A stretch of DNA of 64,000 bases. Source: Nitrospira japonica (GTDB lineage Bacteria; Nitrospirota; Thermodesulfovibrionia; UBA6902). The position numbers were made by a program, and so were the translations under genes. Location of the stretch: NCBI GenBank assembly GCA_020723105.1, contig DYJL01000013.1, positions 1 to 64,000 of the forward strand, in the 5' to 3' direction. The notes below the pieces were generated by a model. That model did no database searches and had not been told where the DNA came from. It saw only the letters and a program-made list of their open reading frames with translations. This document shows positions 46,528 to 47,901 of the stretch, piece by piece. Each line of letters begins with the position of its first letter. The stretch's first letter is position 1.

Positions 46528-46604
46528 ATTTACCCCGTTTTCAAACACCTCTAAAAACTTTACTTAGGGGATTGCCGGGTAACTAAAATAAACAAGGAGG
46601 TAGT

Positions 46605-47837
46605 ATGAGATTTTTGTCTGTGTTCATTCTGGTTATTTGTACTGCTCTGATTCCTCAAATGGCGTTCTCGGGAAATGCCAAGACTATTGACGAGCTGGTT
46701 TCATCAACAGATTCCAGCCAGTGTGTTGGATGCCATGCTGATATTCACGAAAACTGGTCCAAATCATGGCATGCAAAATCGGTAACTGATCCACGCACCA
46801 TCAGGACTTTCAGGACCTTTATTTTAGGAGGAATTGATAAACTGCCCGGAGTGAAGAGGACCGAGCTGACACATATGTGTCTTATGTGTCACGCGCCTGC
46901 CGCATTGAATGCTTCGGATGCGCTTTCAGAGCAGATCGCAGAATTGGTGGTAACAGCGGTGGATGACAAGGACGCAGCCAAGAGAGAAGCCGCGATGAAA
47001 GAACTCTCGAAGCTCGATATAAACTGCATAACATGTCATGGCGTAAAAGCGCCGGGCGGCCTGGTAAATGGCAATCTGCCGCTGCCGCCGGATCCCAACA
47101 CAATCTACGGCCCAGGAGACGCAAAGAACCCTCCGCATAAAGACGCGATCGGATTTAATACAGTGAAGTCTGAAAACATGAAGAAAGCTGAATTCTGTGC
47201 GCCGTGTCATCACGGATGCCCGCCGGGCATGACTTCTAAAGATTGTCCGACGCAGTGGACGGTTTATCAGGAGCATTATCTTGCACATGGCGGCAAGCAG
47301 ACGTGTCAGGATTGCCATATGCAGGGTAAAGGCGGTGCGAACCACAGGTTCCCCGGAATCTATGAAAAGGAATTTGCGGCAACCGCTATTGATCTCACTT
47401 TAACTGCGACACCAACCCGTCACTTTGATCATCTGGAAAACAAGGCGATGCCAGCAGTTGTCATGAACGTAAAACTGAAAAACAATGCGGCCCATGATCT
47501 GCCGCATGGCTGAGTATTCATACCAAAAGCGGCGCTGGAAGTGACCGTAAAAGATCAGGACGGCAAAGTATTGTTCTCAAAAATCAAAGATTACGAAGTT
47601 TATGATCTCCACCTGCCCTCAAACAAACCCGGCTATTTGGGCTTTGATGATTGGGATCTGACTGCAATGATGCACATTAATTTAGGACTTGAGCCTCTTG
47701 AAACAGATTCTCTTACATTTGTAGTGCCTCTCAAAGCAGGCACCAAGTCTGTAGAAATTGAGGCCGCATACAAGTTCATGTATGAAGAAAACGATACAGC
47801 AGTCTGGAAGAAGGTAAGCAAAAAGGTAGAATTCTAA
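46605..47837 (+). CDS. extKL: Pentaheme c-type cytochrome with in-frame UGA; probable ExtKL-type selenoprotein
   Basis: Exported electron carrier with a signal peptide (1-22, ending AFS) and five CXXCH haem sites: CVGCH (40), CLMCH, CITCH, CAPCH and CQDCH. An in-frame TGA occurs at 47511-47513 (codon 303, after HDLPHG). The same frame then stays open for 108 codons to a TAA at 47837. This second part reads as ordinary protein (ALEVTVKDQDGKVLF, YDLHLPSNKPGYLGFDDWD), has no start codon of its own near the break, and is followed by terminators. Read through, the product is 410 residues with selenocysteine at 303. From memory, the ExtKL multiheme family contains (seleno)protein members; I cannot check this. 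Only a weak hairpin follows the TGA. The alternatives are a TGG-to-TGA nonsense change or a sequencing error. AAGGAGG precedes the ATG. Confidence 0.75.
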
Positions 47838-47862: not shown

Positions 47863-47901
47863 AAGGGCTTTGTTCGAATTTAGTGAACAAAGCCCTTTTT
47901 C
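47863..47901 (+). terminator. Strong rho-independent terminator
   Basis: AAGGGCTTTGTTC and GAACAAAGCCCTT arms, followed by TTTTT, 26 bp after the cytochrome stop. Confidence 0.92.

Follow-up and report, generated by a model that had tools for sequence, protein, structure and literature searches.

An in-frame UGA probably decoded as selenocysteine in an ExtKL-family pentaheme cytochrome gene of Nitrospira japonica

Introduction

The stretch of 64,000 nucleotides of Nitrospira japonica that was analyzed here (contig DYJL01000013.1, hereafter the window) contains a gene for a pentaheme c-type cytochrome that is interrupted by a single in-frame TGA. This raised the question whether the TGA ends the protein or is read as selenocysteine (Sec). 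In a survey of stop codons published in 2007 the ExtKL selenoprotein family was predicted from Geobacter; neither a SECIS nor non-Sec homologues were reported, and a conserved operon was left as an alternative (PMC1914089). ExtKL has been studied within the Geobacter ext cluster (PMC5877670, PMC6148476), and the protein was detected by antibody, with a preliminary link to selenite reduction (PMC5877670). Structural relatives are found in cable bacteria (PMC11976967), a homologue is strongly expressed in sulfate reducers that live in partnership with methanotrophic archaea (PMC10553843), and ExtKL is listed among the prokaryotic selenoprotein families (PMC13188914). The kind of protein is already known, from the prediction of 2007, a family model and structures. 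The present analysis adds a SECIS, homologues with cysteine (Cys) instead of Sec, a second, Cys-containing family member encoded by the same genome, and Cys214, an invariant cysteine outside the heme motifs. Other papers may already describe the SECIS, the homologues with Cys and the pair of Sec and Cys paralogues.

Results

Reading frame and family membership

The extKL-type gene (46605-47837; all features of the window are on the plus strand) starts with the ATG at 46605, 4 nt downstream of the ribosome-binding site AAGGAGG read off the sequence (46594-46600), and ends with the TAA at 47835-47837. The sole interruption of the frame is the TGA at 47511-47513. With this codon read as Sec, the protein would have 302 + Sec + 107 = 410 residues; gene callers cut such proteins at 302 residues. 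The frame, its coordinates, the five heme motifs and the single TGA agreed with the first-pass annotation, which had counted 108 sense codons after the TGA instead of 107. It had also placed terminators only after the second stop, and indeed the sole strong one is an intrinsic terminator 3′ of the TAA, followed by a T-run (47863-47897, -20.3 kcal/mol, z -5.6). Its statement that there is no internal start near the break held only in part: an in-frame GTG is present at 47541, 10 codons past the TGA, but no ribosome-binding site was found before it. This GTG is a codon of the conserved Val313-region. A promoter scan gave no match above chance.

The first 22 residues (MRFLSVFILVICTALIPQMAFS, 46605-46670) form a probable signal peptide, as indicated by the hydrophobic N-terminus and a helix at residues 2-20 in the structural model. 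The N-terminal part contains five CXXCH heme sites, namely CVGCH (residues 40-44, 46722-46736), CLMCH (residues 92-96, 46878-46892), CITCH (residues 141-145, 47025-47039), CAPCH (residues 198-202, 47196-47210) and CQDCH (residues 234-238, 47304-47318), and each of them is conserved in every homologue covering the site.

A profile search revealed a match to the NCBIfam model NF040886, "multiheme c-type cytochrome (seleno)protein ExtKL", which spans residues 19-410 and thus runs through the UGA (profile positions 27-422 of 423). The score of 291.3 bits (E 9.5e-87) is above the curated cut-off of 250 bits, while Pfam yielded general multiheme matches only. By its sequence the gene is therefore assigned to ExtKL, a previously named family of electron-transfer selenoproteins with five hemes, to which it adds a new member; the first-pass annotation had correctly pointed to this family.

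The protein shares with ExtKL of Geobacter sulfurreducens (GSU2937-GSU2936) the five CXXCH motifs, one in-frame UGA at the same place and the C-terminal beta domain. In contrast to the Geobacter gene, which is part of the extHIJKLMNOPQS cluster, the window gene stands alone; the cluster location is a trait of the Geobacter locus and not a criterion in the family model. In addition, the motif around the Sec is HDLPHGU-VFIPK instead of the commoner GHRIPDGU-PSPNR. The neighbors in the window, named from their translations, are lon, thiL, a DUF2062-like gene, and genes for an M50 protease and an NtrC-type regulator, and they were not found beside the orthologues of the gene. As this context resembles neither the Geobacter ext cluster nor the surroundings of the orthologues, it does not allow a function to be transferred.

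The residue at the UGA and the selection on both sides

The family was searched in 101 genomes (the own genome and related ones), and 72 of them had a match above the cut-off. Together with a scan of public genomes, this yielded 94 distinct sequences covering the site, the window included. The equivalent of residue 303, which is part of the motif H-x-x-P-x-G-U, is encoded by TGA (Sec) in 80 of them and by TGC or TGT (Cys) in 14; neither Trp nor any other residue or stop was found among these 94 homologues. More remote heme proteins that carry a different residue at the site are outside the family and not counted here. The Sec/Cys label requires four changes on a tree for which the site was masked. 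Besides Sec/Cys303, the residues outside the CXXCH motifs that do not vary among the 94 sequences are Pro98, His178, Cys214, Gln235, His247 and His297; position 56 is occupied by His, Met or Lys.

Comparison with six orthologues (67-82% identical) gave dN/dS values of 0.09-0.12 before the UGA and of about 0.07-0.14 after it, one comparison for the latter part being saturated. Purifying selection is equal on both sides of the UGA, and the low values after it show that the downstream part is a translated, constrained protein segment.

This result bears on the alternative left open by the earlier survey (PMC1914089), in which translation truly ends at the TGA and a conserved operon yields two proteins, ExtK (302 aa, five hemes) and ExtL. 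Such an arrangement would be in line with the presence of all five heme motifs in the 302-residue part. However, the constraint continues through the UGA, the frame is uninterrupted in the 14 Cys homologues, and the solved structures of a relative, MccSep (see below), consist of a single chain across the Sec site. Furthermore, no start codon preceded by a ribosome-binding site is present in the downstream part, whose first GTG lies inside the conserved hairpin described in the next section. Two separate products are therefore very improbable.

The SECIS hairpin

Downstream of the TGA a conserved hairpin, GCGG-CGCU-GGA-AGUG-A-CCGU (GCGGCGCTGGAAGTGACCGT), is found at 47529-47548, i.e., 16-35 nt past the codon, with its apical GGA loop 24-26 nt past the UGA. 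It has the features that define a bacterial SECIS, a position just 3′ of the UGA and a G in a small apical loop. The hairpin of the window has an MFE of -8.4, and only 1.3% of synonymous recodings fold equally well (p = 0.013). The fold of this single sequence was not significant against dinucleotide shuffles (z -0.4 to -0.9), and thus the evidence for the SECIS is comparative.

The mean folding energy of nucleotides 14-37 after the UGA was -9.25 kcal/mol in the 80 Sec members versus -2.64 in the 14 Cys members; control 24-mers from the same genes had a mean of -2.28 kcal/mol. The synonymous recoding test was significant at the 0.05 level in 91% of the Sec members (mean z -2.8), compared to 14% of the Cys members. 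At codons +6 to +11, 81-97% of the pairs of Sec members that share the residue also agreed in the synonymous codon, while 22-50% were expected from codon usage; outside these codons the agreement was mostly near expectation. In the Cys members it was near expectation at +8 to +11, with few pairs at +6 and +7. The related sequences are not independent of one another, yet the Cys members, which are found on several branches, are devoid of the structure. The hairpin at 47529-47548 is thus a predicted bacterial SECIS, which the Sec members maintain at synonymous sites and the Cys members have lost.

The hairpin is also present in relatives from Desulfarculus and the Desulfobulbales. Two versions of the stem exist, one with the pairs U20-A31 and C21-G30 and a bulged U29 (nucleotides after the UGA), and one in the clade of the window, in which C20 pairs with G30 and position 21 with U29, and A31 is bulged. 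The hairpin of the window gene has a bulged A and not a bulged U. The position of the bulge (U29 or A31; 47533-47544 in the window, nt +20 to +31) tracks the encoded residue, in most cases Val or Ala, and the SECIS appears to place a constraint on the protein residues. A weak hairpin with a loop 18 nt after the UGA, which had been noticed in the first-pass annotation, is not the conserved one and was rejected as a SECIS.

Selenocysteine machinery and a cysteine paralogue

The same genome encodes the full Sec machinery, i.e., a tRNA-Sec (selC; 74.5 bits, cut-off 47) as well as selA (623 bits), selB (344 bits) and selD (334 bits), all above their cut-offs. selA and selB are adjacent on contig 94 (31945-35325), and the tRNA-Sec lies about 80 kb from them on the same contig. 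selD is located on contig 88 (L172:3230-4369, minus strand) and itself has an in-frame TGA, within the motif GGUAAK; SelD with Sec in this motif is a known form of the selenoprotein.

The genome contains a second ExtKL-family gene on contig 30 (L132:4944-6146), in which Cys (TGT) replaces the Sec. It lacks the SECIS hairpin, and its product is 40% identical to the window protein. Such Sec/Cys paralogues in one genome form a natural experiment on the contribution of selenium to an electron-transfer cytochrome. In a relative (L155, contig 114 of its genome, G016) a Sec and a Cys gene of the family are close together, and the Cys copy lies within a longer open frame of more than 600 residues, possibly as a fusion.

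The in-frame UGA of the window is very probably read as selenocysteine, because of the family membership, the Sec/Cys alternation at position 303, the Sec machinery, the conservation of the SECIS, the constraint across the UGA, and the terminator after the TAA only. The analysis yielded no evidence against it. The first-pass annotation had proposed a selenocysteine-containing pentaheme cytochrome, with an alignment at position 303, a SECIS search and a search for selA, selB, selC and selD as checks, and all of them turned out in favor of the proposal. The SelB/tRNA-Sec system would decode UGA 303 guided by the hairpin. Taken together, the locus is almost certainly a single gene for an exported pentaheme c-type cytochrome of the ExtKL family with a SECIS-directed Sec at position 303. 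As both a SECIS and non-Sec homologues are now supplied, the decoding question is settled for this family as far as sequence can show.

A reassignment of the UGA, e.g., to Trp or Gly, or ordinary suppression would explain the continuous frame without selenium. No support for either was found; homologues replace the TGA by Cys, never by Trp or Gly, the machinery for Sec is complete, and the hairpin is kept only alongside the TGA, so that this explanation is even less probable than separate products. A sequencing error or a pseudogene is of negligible probability and has no support. Chance and sequencing error are excluded, since 80 of the 94 homologues have a TGA at this codon, including five from other species of the same genus within the nearest clade (78-82% identity), and dN/dS is about 0.1 on either side of the TGA.

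Structural model and possible role of Sec303

An AlphaFold model was built from 19 homologues and without hemes, and its pLDDT of 70 is moderate. In this model the heme part is mainly helical and a beta-sandwich follows past residue 260. Sec303 is placed in a loop between the strands 280-293 and 308-317. His178, His247 and His297 are candidate distal heme ligands. Cys214 (47244-47246), which is outside of any CXXCH, is a possible partner of Sec303.

The selenocysteine-containing product would be a periplasmic pentaheme cytochrome whose C-terminal domain is a beta-sandwich. The Sec selenolate might be located at the redox-active terminus of the heme chain, possibly paired with Cys214, and might enable the protein to pass electrons to a substrate or partner. 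As to the biochemical role of the window protein, we infer from analogy to the Geobacter ext cluster, which suggests such a role, that it could be the reduction of selenium or tellurium oxyanions or of metals. It is conceivable, though rather unlikely, that Sec303 takes part directly in the heme chemistry, either by a selenenylsulfide with Cys214 that gates the electron flow from the heme chain to the substrate, or as a selenolate approaching or ligating a heme iron. If this were true, redox coupling by a Sec within a multiheme cytochrome would be of an unusual kind.

Relatives of known structure

With the family profile, MccSep (multiheme cytochrome c selenoprotein; PDB 9wt8, 9wta and 9wtb) was found with an E-value of 2e-107. 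It is homologous to the window protein from residue 19 through the Sec site into the C-terminal domain, but the sequence similarity is only distant. A non-standard residue (X) is present at the position aligned with Sec303, and in the structures of the mutant U325A (9wt9 and 9wtc) Ala is aligned with it, so that Sec303 corresponds to residue 325. Foldseek also matched ApaG-like, glycosidase and further beta-sandwich proteins, but these matches reflect just a fold that the C-terminal domain shares with them. Within the searched PDB library, pentaheme cytochrome c552 from Thermochromatium tepidum (PDB 5ze8; E 1e-12, TM about 0.5) had the best match in fold; it is more distant, with a weak sequence match and 19% identity over the structural alignment.
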